From assembly GCF_031081985.1 (NCBI RefSeq), contig NZ_JARWSK010000002.1:310001-374000 (forward strand): a stretch of 64,000 bases of DNA, given 5' to 3'. Below, piece by piece: positions 2,219-59,799 of this stretch. Below the pieces are notes generated by a model. That model had not been told where the DNA came from and searched no databases. It worked only from the letters and a program-made list of their open reading frames with translations. Origin of the DNA: Komagataeibacter xylinus. GTDB lineage: Bacteria; Pseudomonadota; Alphaproteobacteria; Acetobacterales; Acetobacteraceae. The stretch's first letter is position 1. The number at the start of each line of letters is the position of its first letter. Position numbers and translations under genes: made by a program.

Positions 2219-2298
2219 AAAAGTTTTTGGGTGCTGCCTTTTTTCAAAAAGGCGGCGTTCTTCGAAGCTTTTTGCAAAAAGCTTCACCAAAAACTTTT
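2219..2298 (+). repeat. Cloverleaf repeat, full copy 1
   Basis: Outer arms AAAAGTTTTTGG and CCAAAAACTTTT are a perfect 12-bp inverted repeat. Inside are hairpin I (GCTGCC...GGCGGC, one G-U type change) and hairpin II (GAAGCTTTTT / AAAAAGCTTC). It lies between the convergent genes pdxJ and tldD. Confidence 0.9.
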
Positions 2299-6873: not shown

Positions 6874-6957
6874 AAAGACGTTTGTGGTGAAGCCTGTTTT
6901 CAAAAAGCGTCGAAGAGCGCCGCCTTCTTGAAAAAAGGCGGCACCCCCCAAATTTCT
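6874..6957 (-). repeat. Cloverleaf repeat, diverged full copy 2
   Basis: Inverse orientation. Hairpin I is intact (GCCGCC...GGCGGC). Hairpin II has mismatches (GAAGCCTG against AAGCGTC) and the outer arms are partly decayed. It lies between the trehalase terminator and the tRNA-Pro terminator, which face each other. Confidence 0.75.
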
Positions 6958-9761: not shown

Positions 9762-9785
9762 ACACCTGGGTAGCGTGAACCCTGA

Positions 9786-9865
9786 AAAAGTTTTTGGGTG
9801 CCGCCTTTTTTAAAAAAGGCGGCATTCTTCGAAGCTTTTTGAAAAAAGCTTCACCAAAAACTTTT
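9786..9865 (+). repeat. Cloverleaf repeat, full copy 3
   Basis: Canonical copy with outer arms AAAAGTTTTTGG / CCAAAAACTTTT, hairpin I GCCGCC...GGCGGC and hairpin II GAAGCTTTTT...AAAAAGCTTC. It fills the gap between the convergent NUDIX and MTHFR genes, 24 and 15 bases from their stops. Confidence 0.92.
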
Positions 9866-9880
9866 CCTTTTATCAATATT

Positions 9881-17260: not shown

Positions 17261-17337
17261 AAAATTTTTTGGTGAAGCTTTTTCAAAAAGCTTCAGGGAA
17301 CACCGCCTTTTTGAAAAAAGGCGGCACCCAAAAACTT
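17261..17337 (-). repeat. Cloverleaf repeat, full copy 4
   Basis: Inverse orientation: hairpin II (GAAGCTTTTT...AAAAAGCTTC) comes first, then hairpin I (CCGCC...GGCGG). The outer left arm has AAAATTTTTTGG instead of AAAAGTTTTTGG. It ends 20 bases from the stop of the histidine phosphatase gene. Confidence 0.88.
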
Positions 17338-17357
17338 TGATTCCATATGCCTGTCCT

Positions 17358-26148: not shown

Positions 26149-26224
<76 letters not shown>

Positions 26225-26280: not shown

Positions 26281-26306
26281 GAGGTTTTTGAATTTTTTTT
26301 ATAAGC

Positions 26307-26320
26307 GACTGTTTGAAAAC
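26307..26320 (+). repeat. AT-rich side module linked to repeat copy 5
   Basis: GACTGTTTGAAAAC followed by AACTCATTGATAA, adjoining the left arm of the truncated cloverleaf copy. The same words recur beside copies 7 and 11 and, on the other side, copy 8. Confidence 0.6.
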
Positions 26321-26341
26321 AACTCATTGATAAAAAATAAC

Positions 26342-26390
26342 AAAAGTTTCTGAATGCCGCCTTTTTGAAAAAAGCTTCACCAAAAACTTT
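26342..26390 (+). repeat. Cloverleaf repeat, internally deleted copy 5
   Basis: Only 49 bp. The left half of hairpin I (GCCGCCTTTTTG) is joined directly to the right half of hairpin II (AAAAAAGCTTC), so both hairpins are destroyed while the outer arms AAAAGTTTCTG / CAAAAACTTT remain. It ends 12 bases from the parB stop. Confidence 0.8.
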
Positions 26391-26402
26391 CTTCTCCAAC
26401 CG

Positions 26403-33490: not shown

Positions 33491-33491
33491 T

Positions 33492-33572
33492 AAAAGTTTT
33501 TGGGCGCTGGTTTTTTTCAAAAAGGCGGCGTTTCTTTCGAAGCTTTTTGAAAAAAGCTTCACCAAAAATTTC
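33492..33572 (+). repeat. Cloverleaf repeat, full copy 6
   Basis: The left arm is canonical. Hairpin I has a changed left half (GCTGG against GGCGGC), hairpin II is canonical. The element starts one base after the quinone oxidoreductase stop and is followed at once by the rho terminator. Confidence 0.88.
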
Positions 33573-33577
33573 CAATG

Positions 33578-33607
33578 AAAAAACCCCGGCCTTTCGGCCG
33601 GGGTTTT
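33578..33607 (-). terminator. Bidirectional Rho-independent terminator (rho and quinone oxidoreductase)
   Basis: CCCCGGCC-TTTC-GGCCGGGG stem flanked by A-rich sequence on one side and TTTT on the other, so it works on both strands. It lies 24 bases past the rho stop. Confidence 0.92.
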
Positions 33608-33631
33608 GCTCTGGCACCTGCTGTAATGCGA

Positions 33632-36188: not shown

Positions 36189-36239
36189 AGAAGTGTTTGA
36201 TGACGCCTTTTTGAAAAAAGGCAGCACCCCAAAATTTCT
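36189..36239 (-). repeat. Cloverleaf repeat, single-hairpin copy 7
   Basis: Inverse orientation. Hairpin II is missing: the left arm AAGTGTTTGATGA runs straight into hairpin I (CGCC...GGCAGC), then the right arm CCCCAAAATTTCT. Confidence 0.78.
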
Positions 36240-36260
36240 ATTGTTTCCTATAAAGAATTT

Positions 36261-36274
36261 GTTTTCAAACAGTC
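36261..36274 (-). repeat. AT-rich side module linked to repeat copy 7
   Basis: GTTTTCAAACAGTC, the exact reverse complement of the word beside copy 5, on the same side of hairpin I and at similar distance. Confidence 0.6.
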
Positions 36275-36421
36275 ACTAAGCCCAAATTTCCATATAAATG
36301 TTCATACAGTGCTTACAAAAAGAAAGCATAATTATATTTTTAAGTAAATATTATTCATTGGCGCATATTCTGCAAATTCAAAAAGAAAATATTCCGGCCA
36401 TCCAGATTCAGGAGCACGAAT

Positions 36422-38790: not shown

Positions 38791-38811
38791 TCTTCATGCC
38801 GCACGGCAAGA

Positions 38812-38825
38812 GACTGTTTGAAAAT
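38812..38825 (+). repeat. AT-rich side module beside repeat copy 8
   Basis: GACTGTTTGAAAAT, one base different from the word at copies 5 and 7, but here on the hairpin II side of the element. Confidence 0.5.
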
Positions 38826-38835
38826 TTGGCTCAGA

Positions 38836-38913
38836 AAATACGAAGCTTTTTTCCAAAAGCTTCGGAGAACGCCGCCTTTTTGCAAAAAGGCGGCACCCAA
38901 AAACGTATATTCT
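38836..38913 (-). repeat. Cloverleaf repeat, variant copy 8
   Basis: Both hairpins are present (GAAGC...GCTTC, GCCGCC...GGCGGC). The outer arms are replaced by a shorter pair ATACG / CGTAT. It lies between the convergent XRE and porin genes, 14 bases from the porin stop. Confidence 0.85.
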
Positions 38914-43640: not shown

Positions 43641-43722
43641 AGAAGTTCTTGGGTGCCGCCTTTTTTCAAAAAGGCGGCGTTCTCTCGAAGCTTTTTGAAA
43701 AAAGCTTCACCAAAAACTTTTT
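43641..43722 (+). repeat. Cloverleaf repeat, full copy 9
   Basis: Left arm AGAAGTTCTTGGG is slightly decayed; both hairpins and the right arm CCAAAAACTTTT are canonical. It is preceded by AATTCATTGATAAGAAAC, the inner part of the side module seen at copy 5. It lies 16 bases after trpA, in the same-strand gap before accD. Confidence 0.9.
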
Positions 43723-46049: not shown

Positions 46050-46056
46050 AAACGGA

Positions 46057-46110
46057 TAAAGCTTCAAGAAAAACGCCGCCTTTTTGAAAAAAGGCGGCGC
46101 CCGGAAACTT
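46057..46110 (-). repeat. Cloverleaf repeat, truncated copy 10
   Basis: Inverse orientation; the left arm and most of hairpin II are lost (AAAGCTTCAAGAAAAAC remains), hairpin I is perfect, right arm CCCGGAAACTTTCT. It exactly fills the 62-base gap between folC and the convergent MFS gene. Confidence 0.82.
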
Positions 46111-46111
46111 T

Positions 46112-47527
46112 CTATTTTTCCTCCGGCAGCGGAGCGCCCTGCCCGATTTCGCGCAGCGGCAGGCCCGCCATCAGGCGCTGCTCGATCTTTTCAAGCGACA
46201 TGTCCCGCGTCTCGGGAATGAAGCGCCATGTGACCAGCACAAAGAACAGGTTGAAGCCCGCAAACAGCCAGAAGGTCGGGCCATTGCCCATCCACTGCAA
46301 CAGCGACAGGAAGCTCGCGCCCACGATCATGTTGGCGATCCAGTTGGTGAGCGTGGAGATGGAAATGCCAAGGTCACGCCCCTGCAGCGGCTGCACCTCC
46401 GAGCACAGCACCCAGATCAGCGGACCCGCCGACATGGCGAAGCCGGAAATATAGATCAGCAGCATGAACACCGCGATGATCTGCTCCGACTGGTCCAGAT
46501 GCGGGCGGTTGAGCATGAAGCCAAGGCTACCCATGCCCACGGCCATGATCAGGAAGCCGGTATACAGGATCGGCTTGCGCCCCCAGCGATCGACAAGCCC
46601 GATGGCAATAAAGGTGGCCAGCATGTTCACCAGCCCCACCATGGCGGTGCACCACAGCTGCGCGGGGCCGACATAGCCTGCGAGCGCGAAGATCTTGGGG
46701 GCGTAGTACATCACCACGTTCACGCCCGCGAGCTGCTGCATGACCTGCAGCGTCATGCCCAGGAAGATGGAGCGGCGGAAATTGCGGTTGTTGCGCAGCA
46801 GGCTCCAGCCGCGCTGCTTCTGCTGGAGCTGGCGGCTGATGTTCTGGATCTCCTGCATGGCCACGCTTTTGTCGTTGCGCAGGTCTTCCAGCACTTCCAG
46901 CGCTTCCTTGCGGCGGCCACGCATCATGAGCCAGCGCGGGCTGTAGGGCAGGAACAGCACGCCAATCAGGAACAGCACGCCTGGCACGGCGGCCACGGCG
47001 AACATGCCGCGCCAGTTGCCCGTATAGCTGAACATGGTGTTGCTGAGAAAGGCGATGAAGATACCCGCCGTGATCATGAGCTGGTAGGTCGAGATCATGG
47101 CGCCACGCGCCTGCTCGCTTGCAATCTCGGACAGGTAGAGCGGCGCCGTGAACGCCGCCACCCCGATGGCAAGCCCCATGATGAGCCGCCCTGCAATCAT
47201 GGACGGGATCGACCACGCCAGCGCACAGGCCAACGAGCCCGCCACGAACACGGCCGCCCCCACCAGCAGCGCATGCTTGCGCCCGATCTGGTGCGACATC
47301 CAGCCCCCGCACAGCGAGCCAACGGCAGCACCGCCCATCATGGCGCTGACAATCCATTCCTGCTGCAGGGTGGTGGCGTGGAAGGTGGCGGCGAGCAGGT
47401 CGAGCGCACCGGAGATGACCCCGATATCAAGCCCGGCCATGAGGCCTGCAAGTGCCGCGAGGCAGCCAATGATGAGGGTACGCATCCGTGCCGAATCAAA
47501 TACGGCGGGCGCGGGCTGATTTTCCAT
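46112..47527 (-). CDS. MFS sugar porter (sugar:H+ symporter type)
   Basis: 471 residues, twelve membrane helices. Family signatures: GLMAGLDIGVISGAL at helix 1, GGWMSHQIGRKHALL after helix 2 (GRR/K loop), PLYLSEIASEQARGAM, PYSPRWLMMRGR in the central loop, QQLAGVNVVMYYAPKIF at helix 7, VDRWGRKPILY and a C-terminal RFIPETRDMSLE. These match the GalP/XylE/AraE branch, which imports monosaccharides with protons. The sugar cannot be decided. Its closest companion in the window is the second sugar porter at 52261. Confidence 0.92.
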   Translation of the reverse strand: MENQPAPAVFDSARMRTLIIGCLAALAGLMAGLDIGVISGALDLLAATFHATTLQQEWIVSAMMGGAAVGSLCGGWMSHQIGRKHALLVGAAVFVAGSLACALAWSIPSMIAGRLIMGLAIGVAAFTAPLYLSEIASEQARGAMISTYQLMITAGIFIAFLSNTMFSYTGNWRGMFAVAAVPGVLFLIGVLFLPYSPRWLMMRGRRKEALEVLEDLRNDKSVAMQEIQNISRQLQQKQRGWSLLRNNRNFRRSIFLGMTLQVMQQLAGVNVVMYYAPKIFALAGYVGPAQLWCTAMVGLVNMLATFIAIGLVDRWGRKPILYTGFLIMAVGMGSLGFMLNRPHLDQSEQIIAVFMLLIYISGFAMSAGPLIWVLCSEVQPLQGRDLGISISTLTNWIANMIVGASFLSLLQWMGNGPTFWLFAGFNLFFVLVTWRFIPETRDMSLEKIEQRLMAGLPLREIGQGAPLPEEK

Positions 47528-48950: not shown

Positions 48951-49029
48951 AGAAGTTTTTGGTGACGCTTTTTTCAAAAATCTTCGAAGAACGCCGCCTT
49001 TTTGAAAAAAGGCGGCATCCAGAAACTTT
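48951..49029 (-). repeat. Cloverleaf repeat, full copy 11
   Basis: Inverse orientation. Outer arms AGAAGTTTTTGG / CCAGAAACTTTT, hairpin II with mismatches (ACGCTTTTTT...AAAATCTTC), hairpin I perfect. It lies 3' of the flavin reductase gene. Confidence 0.85.
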
Positions 49030-49051
49030 TATTGTTTTTTATTAATGGTTT

Positions 49052-49064
49052 GTTTTCAAACAGT
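49052..49064 (-). repeat. AT-rich side module linked to repeat copy 11
   Basis: GTTTTCAAACAGT, on the hairpin I side, ending three bases from the flavin reductase stop; same layout as copies 5 and 7. Confidence 0.6.
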
Positions 49065-52260: not shown

Positions 52261-53739
52261 ATGAACACCCAGTCCCCCCCAAACCAGACTACGCAGCAGC
52301 CCACCGAACCGTTACCCGATCTGTCGCAGATCGAGATTTCACCCAATGCGCGCAAGACCCTGTGGCTCGCAGCCATCGTGGCCGCAATCTGTGGCGGCCT
52401 CTATGGTTACGATACCGGCATCGTATCGGGCGCGCTTTTGCTCATTACGCGTGATTTCCATCTCAGCAGCTTCCTGCAGGAGATGGTGGCCTCCGCCATC
52501 CTGGCGGGCGCGGTGCTTGGCTCGCTGCTCACCGGCTGGCTGTCGGAGCATTATGGCCGGCGCAAATCGGTCATGATCGTCACGGCGGTGTTCGTGCTCG
52601 GCGCACTGGCCTGCGCGTTTTCGCCCGATGTCTATACGCTCATCGCGGCGCGCGTGTTCCTCGGGCTTGCAGTCGGTGGCTCCACGCAGGTGGTGCCGAT
52701 GTACATCTCGGAACTCGCCCCCGCGCACAAGCGCGGCCACATGGTCACGATGTTCAACATCGCCATCGGCATCGGCATCTTTGCCGCCAACATCATTGGC
52801 TTTGCCGCGCGTGATGCGTGGGGCTGGCGGCCGATGGTGGCCATTGCAGCCATTCCGGCGGCGGGCGTGTTCATCTCCATGTTCTTCCTGCCCAAGAGCC
52901 CGCGCTGGGCGGCGGAGCATGAAAGCCTTGATTCCGCCCTTGAGCAGCTCCAGCGCATCCGCACCTCCGAGCGCGAGATCCGCCGCGAGATGCGCCGCAT
53001 CCACGCCAATGCCAATGAGGAGACCGACCCGCGCGATGTCGGCTGGCGCGGCATCCGCCAGCCCTGGGTGCGCCCCGCACTCGTGGCCGCCCTTGGCGTT
53101 GCCTTCTTCACGCAGGCAGGCGGGCTGGAGATGATGATCTACTATGCGCCGACCTTCCTGTCGGATGCAGGCTTTGGCAGTTCATCGGCACTGATGGCCA
53201 GCATCGGCATTTCCATCATCTATCTGGTCATGACCGTGCTGGGCTCGAACATTGTTGACCGTATCGGCCGCCGCCGCCTTGTGCTGGTCATGGGGCCGGG
53301 CAGCGTGCTGAGCCTGATCGGGCTGGGCATCATGTTCCTGGCCCACCCGCAGCCGGGCAGCATGGGCAGCTGGTTGATCATTGTGTTCATGCTGCTGTTC
53401 ATGGTGTTCAACGCTGGCGGCATTCAGGTGGTGGGCTGGCTGCTCGGCGCCGAGATGTTCCCGCTTTCCATGCGCGGCAACGCCACCAGCCTGCATTCCG
53501 CCATGCTGTGGGGCAGTGACCTGCTGGTCACCAGCACGGCGCTCACGCTGGTCACCAAGATCACGCTGGGCGGCACCATGTGGTTCTATGCCGGGGTAAA
53601 CCTGCTTTCGGTGCTGTTCGTGTATTTCATGGTGCCTGAAACGCGCGGCGCCTCGCTGGAGGATATCGAGGAGGCGCTGCGTGAAGGCCGCTTCCGCCCC
53701 ACGCGCGGCAACACCGCGATCGTGGAGGAAGAGGAATAA
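52261..53739 (+). CDS. MFS sugar porter
   Basis: 492 residues from the ATG at 52261, preceded by AAGGAAGGA. Twelve helices with the sugar-porter signatures GLYGYDTGIVSGALLLI, TGWLSEHYGRRKSVM, PMYISELAPAHKRGHM, PKSPRWAAEHES, DRIGRRRLVLV and the C-terminal PETRGASLEDIE. It differs in helix 7 from the GalP-type (QAGGLEMMIYYAPTFL in place of QQLAGVN). Imports a sugar or polyol with protons; substrate open. Its stop codon lies inside the first bases of cloverleaf copy 12. Confidence 0.92.
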   Translation: MNTQSPPNQTTQQPTEPLPDLSQIEISPNARKTLWLAAIVAAICGGLYGYDTGIVSGALLLITRDFHLSSFLQEMVASAILAGAVLGSLLTGWLSEHYGRRKSVMIVTAVFVLGALACAFSPDVYTLIAARVFLGLAVGGSTQVVPMYISELAPAHKRGHMVTMFNIAIGIGIFAANIIGFAARDAWGWRPMVAIAAIPAAGVFISMFFLPKSPRWAAEHESLDSALEQLQRIRTSEREIRREMRRIHANANEETDPRDVGWRGIRQPWVRPALVAALGVAFFTQAGGLEMMIYYAPTFLSDAGFGSSSALMASIGISIIYLVMTVLGSNIVDRIGRRRLVLVMGPGSVLSLIGLGIMFLAHPQPGSMGSWLIIVFMLLFMVFNAGGIQVVGWLLGAEMFPLSMRGNATSLHSAMLWGSDLLVTSTALTLVTKITLGGTMWFYAGVNLLSVLFVYFMVPETRGASLEDIEEALREGRFRPTRGNTAIVEEEE

Positions 53740-53817
53740 AGGTTTTTGGGTGCCGCCTTTTTTCAAAAAGGCGGCGTTCTTTAGAAGCTTTCTGAAAAAA
53801 GCTTCACCAAAAACTTC
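53738..53817 (+). repeat. Cloverleaf repeat, full copy 12, overlapping a stop codon
   Basis: The left arm AAAGGTTTTTGGG begins within the TAA of the MFS gene; hairpin I is perfect, hairpin II has one mismatch (GAAGCTTTCTG), right arm CCAAAAACTT. It fills the whole gap to the convergent S9 peptidase gene. Confidence 0.9.
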
Positions 53818-53818
53818 C

Positions 53819-55798
53819 CTAAGCTTTCAGGTCAACCGCAAGGGCAGGGGTCACGGCCAGGCGCAGCACCTGCTGATAGAAGGCCAGTTCCAGCTCCCAG
53901 GCCTGCCGTATGGTGGCCTCCTGCCTGAAGCCGTGACCCTCGCCTGCAAATTCATACAAGGCGCAGGGCACGCCCTGCCCACGCAGCGCCGCGACCATGG
54001 AGCGGGCCTGCGAGGGCGGCACCACCTTGTCATCCAGCCCCTGCAGGAACAGCACCGGCGCCTTGATGTGGGCCACCTGCGTAATGGGGGAGCGGGCCAG
54101 ATAGGTCGCTTCATCGGCAGGGTAGGGGCCAACCAGCGTATCAAGATAGCGTGATTCGAACTTGTGGGTATCAGTCGCCAGCGCACGCAGGTCGGTCACG
54201 CCATACAGGCTGGTGCCTGCGGCAAACAGGTCCGAGCGCGCCAGCGCCAGCAGCACCGTCAGCCCCCCGGCACTGCTGCCGCGTATGACGATGCGGGCCG
54301 GATCCACCAGCTTTTGCTCCGCCAGATGGTGGCAGGCGGCAATGCAGTCATCCACATCCACCACGCCCCACTGGCCCTCGAGCCGCTGACGATAGGCGCG
54401 GCCAAAGCCTGTCGAGCCGCCATAATTGATATCGACGACGGCAAAGCCACGGCTGGTCCACCACTGCACCTTGAACGAGAAGGCGGCATTTGCCCGCCCG
54501 GTCGGGCCGCCATGCGCCATGACCACCAGTGGCGGCTTCTCACCCGCAGGCCCGCCATAGCGGCTGCTCGCAGGCGCATAGAAAAAGGCCTGCCCCATGC
54601 CATCGCCCATGGGCAGCGGAAAGGTGATGGCGCGCGGCAGGGCAATATCGGCGGGGCCAAGCGGCAGGTCGGTAGCCCGGCGCAGCACATGGGGCGGCTG
54701 GCCCGCATCGCCAGTCACCACTGCCGCCGCATTGTCGGGCGGCACGTCCAGCCACGCAAAACCGCCGCCTTCCACCGGCACCGGGCACCCGGCGGGGTGG
54801 CCAAGGGCCACGGGTGTCGCCACGCCATCACGCAGGCAGGCCATGCGGGCCTCGCCGCCGCTTATGATCATGGCCAGGATTGTGCCATCGGCCAGCAGCA
54901 CGTAGCTGCGCAGGCCAAAGATCCAGTGCGGCTGGCCAATTTCGGCCTGCATGGGAGCCACCGCCACCGGGGCGGAGGATGTGGTGTCGAAGCGGTAAAG
55001 GTTCCACCACCCGCTGCGATCCGACAGGGCCAGCAGGCGGCCCGCCGCATCCCAGCTTGGTTCAATGACCGATTCCGCCTGTCCGTCCTCTCCCGCCAGC
55101 GTCCAGGGTGCGGCGAGGCGAGGGGGGTCGCTACCCTCCTGCAGCAAGGTGGCGACACGCAGGCGCGTTGCGTCCCATGGCATGGCGGGATGGTCCCACT
55201 CGATCCAGGCCAGATACCGCCCATCGGGCGAGGGCCGGGGCGAGGACAGGAAATCCGGCCCCATCACCAGCGGCGTGCCGCCATTGAAGGCGGGGTCTTC
55301 CACCACCGCCATGCAGTCGAACACCACGATGGCGGCGGCGGGCTCGCCCTCTTCCACGCCATGATCCTCACGCACGCAGAACAGGAAGCGGCCATCGGCG
55401 CTGAAGGTCAGGTCCGCAAAACGCAGCCCGGCGCCCGCGGCAATGCAGCGTGTCTGGCCGCCTTCCATCAGCCACACGCTGCCATCGCGCCGGTTGCTCA
55501 GTGCAATCCGGCCCTGACAGACCGCATATGCCCCGCCGCCATATTCATGCACGCGGGTGCCGACATCAAACGGGGCAGGGGTCATGTCCGCCACAACACC
55601 CGCGCGGGCACGCACCAGCACCCGGCGGCCGCCTTCGGCCGGGCGGCCCTCGATCCAGTAAATATCCCGCCCATCGACCCGCACATCGGACAGCGACACC
55701 GTCTGCCCTGCCACCAGCGCCGCGCTGACGGGTGAGGGCCATGTGCCGTAAGGTCGTATATCGATGTCCGTCTTGCCGCTGGTGCCGGACTGGGTCAT
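53819..55798 (-). CDS. S9 family prolyl-oligopeptidase-like serine peptidase
   Basis: 659 residues from the ATG at 55798 with AGGAG eight to twelve bases upstream. The N-terminal part is a beta-propeller-like domain (about residues 40-380, with repeated sheet motifs and Trp/Asp clusters). The C-terminal alpha/beta hydrolase has VMAHGGPTGRANAAFSFKVQ, FAVVDINYGGSTGFGRAYR, the nucleophile IRGSSAGGLTVLLAL, then LQGLDDKVVPP (Asp) and EGHGFR (His). It matches the acylaminoacyl-peptidase/DPP-type branch and likely trims small peptides in the cytosol; no signal peptide is seen. Confidence 0.9.
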   Translation of the reverse strand: MTQSGTSGKTDIDIRPYGTWPSPVSAALVAGQTVSLSDVRVDGRDIYWIEGRPAEGGRRVLVRARAGVVADMTPAPFDVGTRVHEYGGGAYAVCQGRIALSNRRDGSVWLMEGGQTRCIAAGAGLRFADLTFSADGRFLFCVREDHGVEEGEPAAAIVVFDCMAVVEDPAFNGGTPLVMGPDFLSSPRPSPDGRYLAWIEWDHPAMPWDATRLRVATLLQEGSDPPRLAAPWTLAGEDGQAESVIEPSWDAAGRLLALSDRSGWWNLYRFDTTSSAPVAVAPMQAEIGQPHWIFGLRSYVLLADGTILAMIISGGEARMACLRDGVATPVALGHPAGCPVPVEGGGFAWLDVPPDNAAAVVTGDAGQPPHVLRRATDLPLGPADIALPRAITFPLPMGDGMGQAFFYAPASSRYGGPAGEKPPLVVMAHGGPTGRANAAFSFKVQWWTSRGFAVVDINYGGSTGFGRAYRQRLEGQWGVVDVDDCIAACHHLAEQKLVDPARIVIRGSSAGGLTVLLALARSDLFAAGTSLYGVTDLRALATDTHKFESRYLDTLVGPYPADEATYLARSPITQVAHIKAPVLFLQGLDDKVVPPSQARSMVAALRGQGVPCALYEFAGEGHGFRQEATIRQAWELELAFYQQVLRLAVTPALAVDLKA

Positions 55799-58209: not shown

Positions 58210-58320
58210 CTATCCGAAAATCCTGCTCCTGCTGCCGTAATGCACGGCATGATTGAAAAACGCATCGGGGGCCGCCACGACCCGCTTTTGCAAGCAGCCA
58301 TGGCAAGCCCCCTTGATACA

Positions 58321-58366
58321 GAAGTTTCTGGTGCTGCCTTAAGGCTTTACCAGAAAACTTTTATCG
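58321..58366 (+). repeat. Cloverleaf repeat, minimal copy 14 (outer arms only)
   Basis: AGAAGTTTCTGGTGCTGCCTT is joined directly to AAGGCTTTACCAGAAAACTTTT: both hairpins are gone and the remnants pair as one long stem. It lies four bases past the metK stop. Confidence 0.78.
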
Positions 58367-59717: not shown

Positions 59718-59799
59718 AAAAAGTTTTTGGTGAAGCTTTTTTCAAAAAGCTTCAAAAGACGCCGCCTTTTTGAAAAAAGGCGGCACCCAAACACTTTTA
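59718..59799 (-). repeat. Cloverleaf repeat, full copy 13
   Basis: Inverse orientation, canonical: AAAAGTTTTTGG, hairpin II GAAGCTTTTT...AAAAAGCTTC, hairpin I GCCGCC...GGCGGC, right arm CCAAACACTTTT. It lies between dapB (stop 24 bases away) and the metK promoter region. Confidence 0.92.

Follow-up and report, generated by a model that had tools for sequence, protein, structure and literature searches.

Why do the copies of a short repeat in this part of the Komagataeibacter xylinus genome lie almost on stop codons, mostly between convergent genes? The preliminary description of the 64,000-nucleotide stretch analysed here (the window) offered two answers, that the repeat is a bidirectional transcript end or that its insertion is targeted to terminators. 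We found that the repeats beside stop codons are the worn-down cores of a non-autonomous 162-nt transposon (a MITE) of vinegar bacteria. By profile search, the window holds 13 copies of the 80-nt repeat, seven of them in convergent gaps, six in tandem gaps and none in divergent gaps or called genes; a 14th copy is a one-hairpin remnant near metK (Table 1). Seven of the 14, rather than the eight first counted, lie between convergent genes, and the remnant is twice as far from the metK stop as the 4 nt once given. Other placements were described correctly: copy 12, between a sugar-porter MFS gene and an S9 prolyl oligopeptidase-like gene, starts inside the MFS TAA and ends beside the CTA that is the opposing gene's TAG stop, copy 6 begins directly after a stop, and copy 10 sits in its short gap (46050-46111). 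The median distance from window copies to the nearest stop is 16 nt, whereas 5000 random placements over the whole window gave a median of medians of 303 nt and a smallest median of 30 nt.

Table 1. Copies of the repeat in the 64-kb window, with their context.
Feature	Position	Strand	Context
Core copy	2219..2298	+	Convergent gap, 20 nt past a stop
Core copy	6876..6956	-	Convergent gap
Core copy	9786..9865	+	Convergent gap; reversed orientation in G018; 821-bp IS within it in G004
Core copy	17261..17339	-	Tandem gap, upstream stop 18 nt away; only arm remnants in G018 and G015
Long-form left extension GCGACTGTTTGAAAA (26305-26319) and internally deleted core (26342-26391)	26305..26391	+	
Core copy (copy 6)	33492..33573	+	1 nt past a stop; same gap holds a conserved canonical terminator
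Partial core (36200-36241) and left terminal repeat GTGACTGTTTGAAAA (36262-36276)	36200..36276	-	
Partial core (38842-38911) and right terminal repeat GAGACTGTTTGAAAA (38810-38824)	38810..38911	-	
Core copy	43641..43721	+	Tandem gap; found in 8 of 11 species compared
Partial core (copy 10)	46058..46113	-	Convergent gap of 62 nt
Core copy (48951-49030) and left extension reaching ACTGTTTGAAAACA (49051-49064)	48951..49064	-	
Core of copy 12 (outer stem, H1, H2)	53738..53817	+	Starts in MFS stop TAA 53737-53739, abuts opposing stop at 53819
One-hairpin remnant (copy 14)	58320..58362	-	8 nt off the metK stop (58371)
Core copy	59719..59798	-	Tandem gap, upstream stop 25 nt away

The same placement was found beyond the window. 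We sampled 59 systematic 20-kb stretches, which with the window make up 1.244 Mb of the 3.53-Mb genome, and called 1165 genes (87% coding) with a home-made gene caller with gap-filling, whose stops are fairly reliable and whose starts are approximate. A covariance-model search of the whole genome gave at least 150 matches. The sample contained 142 copies; 78 had both ends, some of these being internally deleted, and none of the 78 lay inside a called gene. Six copies at stretch edges were dropped, and the remaining 72 comprised 36 convergent, 32 tandem and 4 divergent copies, where the gap lengths before insertion predict 8.4, 43.3 and 20.3 (p = 1.6e-15, 0.008 and 2.3e-6). The 64 partial copies were divided into 36 convergent, 23 tandem and 5 divergent. 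All 32 tandem copies were closer to the upstream stop than to the next start (medians 15.5 nt and 122 nt), and of the nine that had over 250 nt of free space downstream, eight were within 40 nt of the stop. Cores in this genome had a median distance of 13.5 nt to the nearest stop, and 38 of 68 convergent or tandem copies were no more than 15 nt from one. These counts confirm the first description and are not those of a repeat that is equally common at 5' ends and in gene interiors. Copy density was uneven: the 360 kb sampled from contig C9 contained 20 copies and the 180 kb from C12 contained 8; dense areas were 220 kb of contig C10 with 38 copies plus the window with 13, and 40 kb of C16 with 11.

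The 80-nt repeat is the centre of a larger mobile unit. This unit totals 162 nt, its ends are GAGACTGTTTGAAAA, and its 15-nt terminal inverted repeats flank the double-hairpin core, which is offset 37 nt from the left end and 46 nt from the right end and is built of an outer stem, hairpin H1 (GCCGCC..GGCGGC) and hairpin H2 (GAAGC..GCTTC). The 80-nt core itself was dropped as the mobile unit because recurrent 5' extensions pointed to the 162-nt form: the end of a fixed 5' extension on some copies, sought as an inverted repeat, led to forms of 160-164 nt, and two of the first of these bear TAA at either side. A search for target duplications at the core edges found none; this is expected if the ends are lost, yet it lends no support either. 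The family has terminal inverted repeats, a target duplication of fixed length, empty sites in relatives, and short and numerous copies, as a MITE should. At about 162 nt, it is too short for a transposase gene, and 142 core or partial copies occur in the 1.244 Mb. In the 64-kb window, Rfam at the gathering threshold returned two tRNAs only and no curated model that matches the repeat.

We identified 43 intact 162-nt copies at 40 loci in seven relatives and the genome of the window, where intact means both 15-nt ends with at most three mismatches, so that the terminal repeats are present by the choice of copies. A single genome, G004, contributes 22 of the 43, and seven have an altered interior; both facts count against the MITE explanation. 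Terminal-repeat sites number 22 in the genome of the window, compared with none for a reversed control. There are 93 such sites in G004 and 64 in G014, two genomes that have apparently undergone recent bursts of the MITE.

Identical 3-bp duplications flank 30 of the 43 intact copies, and 28 of the 30 are of the form TNA (13 TTA, 8 TAA, 4 TGA and 3 TCA). The other 13 copies lack an identical duplication, which weakens the MITE explanation. Two stop codons, TAA and TGA, fit the TNA pattern, so the element can insert at a stop and restore it without altering the protein. Such an insertion does occur: L177 (G013) and L244 (G011) are 96% identical and reveal an empty site at a TAA stop, reading GCA-TAA-TAC in L244 and GCA-TAA-(162 nt)-TAA-TAC in L177, with one TAA without the element, two with it, and an unbroken gene. 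Two more empty sites are provided by L173/L234 and L182/L053; this search tried 30 sites and gave three candidates, the third of which was judged unrelated.

Whether stops are preferred to other TNA sites is a separate matter. Nine of the 43 intact copies abut a called stop exactly, compared with an expectation of 8.8% (p = 0.011), which is the share of stop codons among non-coding TNA sites in our sample of the genome, weighted by use. However, four of the nine have no clean duplication and three adjoin low-scoring genes, and recounts gave 5 of 30 among clean duplications (p = 0.12) and, when the stops of low-scoring genes were left out, 6 of 43 (p = 0.17). We therefore gave up the nine matches as proof of a stop preference, and the data do not establish that stops are favoured above TNA sites elsewhere in non-coding DNA. 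Thus, the earlier suggestion of targeted insertion stands in so far as there is a target, but this target is the TNA triplet. In the genome of the window, TAA made up 56 of the 141 stops no more than 40 nt from a copy, compared with 226 of 979 elsewhere (p = 4.5e-5; p = 0.0055 against operon-end genes), which a preference for TTA/TAA targets would predict. TAG stops were not significantly depleted near copies (p = 0.50 against all genes and 0.056 against operon ends), and this counts against the MITE explanation. Called genes hold at most two of the 43 intact copies, both in low-score ORFs, whereas such genes contain 67% of weighted TNA sites.

Based on these results, we have proposed a model in which insertion of a MITE at TNA, survival at 3' ends and subsequent erosion explain the cores that hug stop codons, and we believe that this model is very probably correct. 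The 162-nt MITE inserts at TNA, mostly TTA or TAA, duplicating those three bases, and it would presumably be mobilised in trans by an IS5-family transposase of the TNA type. Insertion at a TAA or TGA stop can rebuild the stop codon and leave the protein unharmed. Insertions within genes or near promoters would be removed by selection, whereas those at 3' ends would persist. The ends of the element would then erode, and the double-hairpin core would end up close to the stop.

Several observations bear on the proposed erosion. The long-form flank is recognisable on 29 of 73 full cores, where about 1.5 are expected; the other 44 have no flank above the 99% null, which counts against the descent of each core from the long form. 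Coverage of a model of the 162-nt element, based on 36 of the 43 intact copies, falls gradually toward both ends, from up to 136 of 141 matches in the core to 7 at position 1. At the L179 site, the element is intact in G011, and the relatives G009, G004 and G010 (L247-L249) have a decayed end directly after the stop; in G004 and G010 (L248 and L249), the core is nearer to the stop and the gene now ends in TAG. These versions of the site look like steps of erosion. That two of the three relatives now have TAG counts against the MITE explanation.

Intact copies and cores also differ in where they lie. Tandem copies are closer to the stop in 13 of 19 intact cases and in 32 of 32 cores (p = 0.0015), the two sets stemming mostly from different genomes. 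The divergent share is 5 of 40 for intact copies and 4 of 72 for cores (p = 0.28). In all, the intact copies comprise 16 convergent, 19 tandem and 5 divergent copies, two in low-score ORFs and one at an edge; without G004, these numbers are 7, 11, 2, 0 and 1. The difference between the tandem sets suggests that insertions on the 5' side happen and seem to be lost later near promoters. It is possible, though less likely than not, that selection alone places the same MITE, so that any TNA is entered, only harmless 3' sites are kept, and the stop is one TNA among others. This reading agrees with the lack of a clear excess of stop matches among clean duplications, and with the presence of 5'-side tandem copies among the intact elements and their absence among the cores. 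It agrees less well with the nine intact copies at distance 0 from a stop, when all are counted, and with the enrichment of TAA near copies. We conclude that the TNA target rule and selection jointly account for the placement.

Could the core instead be a functional element, selected at gene ends to end transcripts from either side? The distance of 13.5 nt to the nearest stop would suit such a terminator, as would its structure: all three copies that were folded formed a three-way junction, in two cases with both strands (z from -4.5 to -6.6), and the flanks are A-rich on the 5' side and T-rich on the 3' side. Pairing in H1 and H2 exceeds that in all 300 shuffles, with seven still-paired double changes in each hairpin compared with means of 1.8 and 1.6. 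Palindrome correction can produce paired changes that resemble covariation. As related copies share changes, we did not accept the covariation of H1 and H2 as proof of RNA function; moreover, the outer stem is without covariation. A hairpin with a T-run is present on one strand in 26 of 62 copies, but on the other strand in none of the 62.

Canonical terminators are as common without a copy as with one, both in convergent gaps (24 of 135 with and 29 of 190 without) and in tandem gaps of at least 100 nt (2 of 41 and 21 of 272), in comparisons of limited power made with a scanner of low sensitivity that found few terminators overall. Orientation in tandem gaps is unbiased (18 same, 14 opposite). 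Greater conservation of the core was expected as a sign of function and was not found; conservation was 0.872 for the core and 0.874 for the rest of the gap, the core being better in 22 of 54 comparisons, and its lower indel rate is biased because the comparison took intact cores only. In addition, gap 33491-33631 keeps its canonical terminator in all ten species compared, two of which are without the repeat, and some orthologous gaps without a repeat measure 0-17 nt, too small for a terminator. Thus, the bidirectional transcript end of the first description is not borne out, and we consider it rather improbable. The data can be explained by a passive role alone, and the repeat may have been put to use later.

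One such use would be that of a domesticated mobile element acting at the mRNA 3' end or in translation termination, like the REPs of Escherichia coli near stops. Of 4,072 E. coli REPs, 446 are within 15 nt of a stop, and such REPs are reported to stall ribosomes (PMC12306157). The 38 convergent or tandem copies no more than 15 nt from a stop are in this range. However, the core shows no extra conservation and the repeat turns over between close species, and we regard domestication as unlikely. Its more far-reaching form, to which we give little credence, is that the MITE uses the stop as a safe harbour, entering TAA or TGA and restoring it, and that an eroded three-way-junction RNA no more than 15 nt from hundreds of stops, throughout the genus, sets mRNA 3' ends, ribosome release or the separation of convergent transcripts. 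If true, the MITE would have provided a layer of 3'-UTRs across the whole genome. Domestication can be tested because some sites occur in intact, eroded and empty form in sister species.

The family is widespread in the genus. All 18 genomes of the same genus that were searched contain copies, from 28 to at least 141 each. Of 120 genomes from across the family, 17 match, including two within the genus; G102, from another genus, matches strongly, G097 moderately and the rest weakly, the weak matches in other genera including G050, G148 and G085. Exact core matches among those listed come from Komagataeibacter, Novacetimonas, Gluconacetobacter entanii, Acetobacter musti and Gluconobacter, and also from two Rikenellaceae gut metagenome assemblies in which the surroundings are different. 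In Alistipes/Rikenellaceae (L299 161-234, L324 874-942 and L305 6922-6986), an exact 34-nt match to H2 and the right arm sits in a different repeat (..CTTTATGAAAAACTCCGTTTTTCTTCCGTGCTGATGCGG..). Six plasmid records match, five of Komagataeibacter and one of Novacetimonas.

Among the relatives compared, orthologous gaps hold the repeat in full, in part or not at all, as the first description had proposed to check. Lost copies leave arm remnants, and relatives hold the repeat in reversed orientation in several gaps; between G000 and four near relatives, orientation agrees in 36 of 37 full pairs. Of the divergent gaps of the window, seven were followed across relatives, and all seven are free of the repeat. 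The copy at 26305-26391 is missing at that place in five aligned relatives (including G018, G015, G007 and G003), which suggests that it is probably a recent gain, already internally deleted; in G004, a different copy is at the far side of this gap. It stands upstream of a tRNA gene (26152-26224, minus strand). In the G004 gap orthologous to window positions 9762-9880 (L129-L132), an 821-bp IS with ends GGGCCTGTTGGGG lies inside the hairpin loop of the copy, so the repeat also serves as a target for an IS. The copies in L249 and L265 are interrupted by another sequence, GGGGGCTGTTGGGAATTGAG. At L024 17455-17540 and in its G003 ortholog, a canonical terminator hairpin with a T-run replaces H1 and is fused to an intact H2 and right arm.

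Which transposase could move the MITE? A 3-bp TNA duplication marks the TNA group of IS5 elements, and 28 of the 30 clean duplications are of this kind. The best candidate parent is an 884-bp IS5 element in G014 (NCBIfam NF033580), which agrees with the MITE at 13 of 15 terminal bases and, for one end of L116, at 16 of 19. The IS5 element is flanked by TTA and TGA, which differ and are no matching duplication. We looked for a parent IS at 12 transposase loci of the genome of the window and 30 of G004 and G014, and around these 12, of 19 DDE_Tnp_1 matches in that genome, we saw no IS with the same terminal repeats. The repeats are also short, palindromic, intergenic and near stops, as would be REP elements moved by a RAYT (Y1) transposase. 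This origin is extremely unlikely given the TNA duplications and 15-nt terminal repeats, and it is refuted for the assembled genome of the window, where Y1_Tnp (PF01797) has no match; control matches were found in 5 of 14 genomes.

We believe that these results supply a cause for a very frequent intergenic repeat of Komagataeibacter, which are cellulose and vinegar bacteria. A selfish element can fill a genome at little harm when its TNA target overlaps stop codons and the duplication rebuilds the stop. Such repeats resemble designed terminators, yet insertion and survival alone can give them their position. As TNA insertion includes stop codons, copies would accumulate harmlessly at gene ends and purpose-built transcript ends are not needed.

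How does the repeat compare with known elements? IS1031 of Acetobacter xylinum is an IS5-type element with a TNA duplication. The MITE shares this duplication with the IS5/IS1031 group, as well as 13 of 15 terminal bases with the 884-bp IS5 element of G014; unlike that group, it has no transposase gene, and we liken it to IS1031 by description and not by sequence. The IS1031 group is present in K. xylinus (PMC6559022). The pneumococcal RUP, BOX and SPRITE elements are short repeats over-represented between convergent genes, and SPRITE lies close to 3' ends and is terminator-like; tolerance and co-option are both considered by the authors (PMC3049150). On that account, the Komagataeibacter repeat resembles them in being short, interspersed, enriched between convergent genes and near 3' ends. 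It differs in its host, its 3-bp TNA duplication, its stop-codon insertion and its end erosion, and here too the likeness is one of description rather than sequence.

Like MITEAba12 (PMC6382973), the Komagataeibacter MITE has terminal repeats, target duplications and a presumed mobilisation in trans. MITEAba12 makes 9-bp duplications and has a proposed parent IS, whereas the Komagataeibacter MITE makes 3-bp TNA duplications and its parent is only a candidate. The ERIC and Correia/NEMIS elements are likewise short, palindromic, MITE-like repeats, and are reported to be co-transcribed with neighbouring genes and to influence mRNA stability (PMC2229807); they live in other hosts and are similar by description, not by sequence or target. 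In the literature searched, which covered few subscription journals, we found no account of the Komagataeibacter MITE. We class the Komagataeibacter repeat as a new MITE family, one whose target includes the stop codon.
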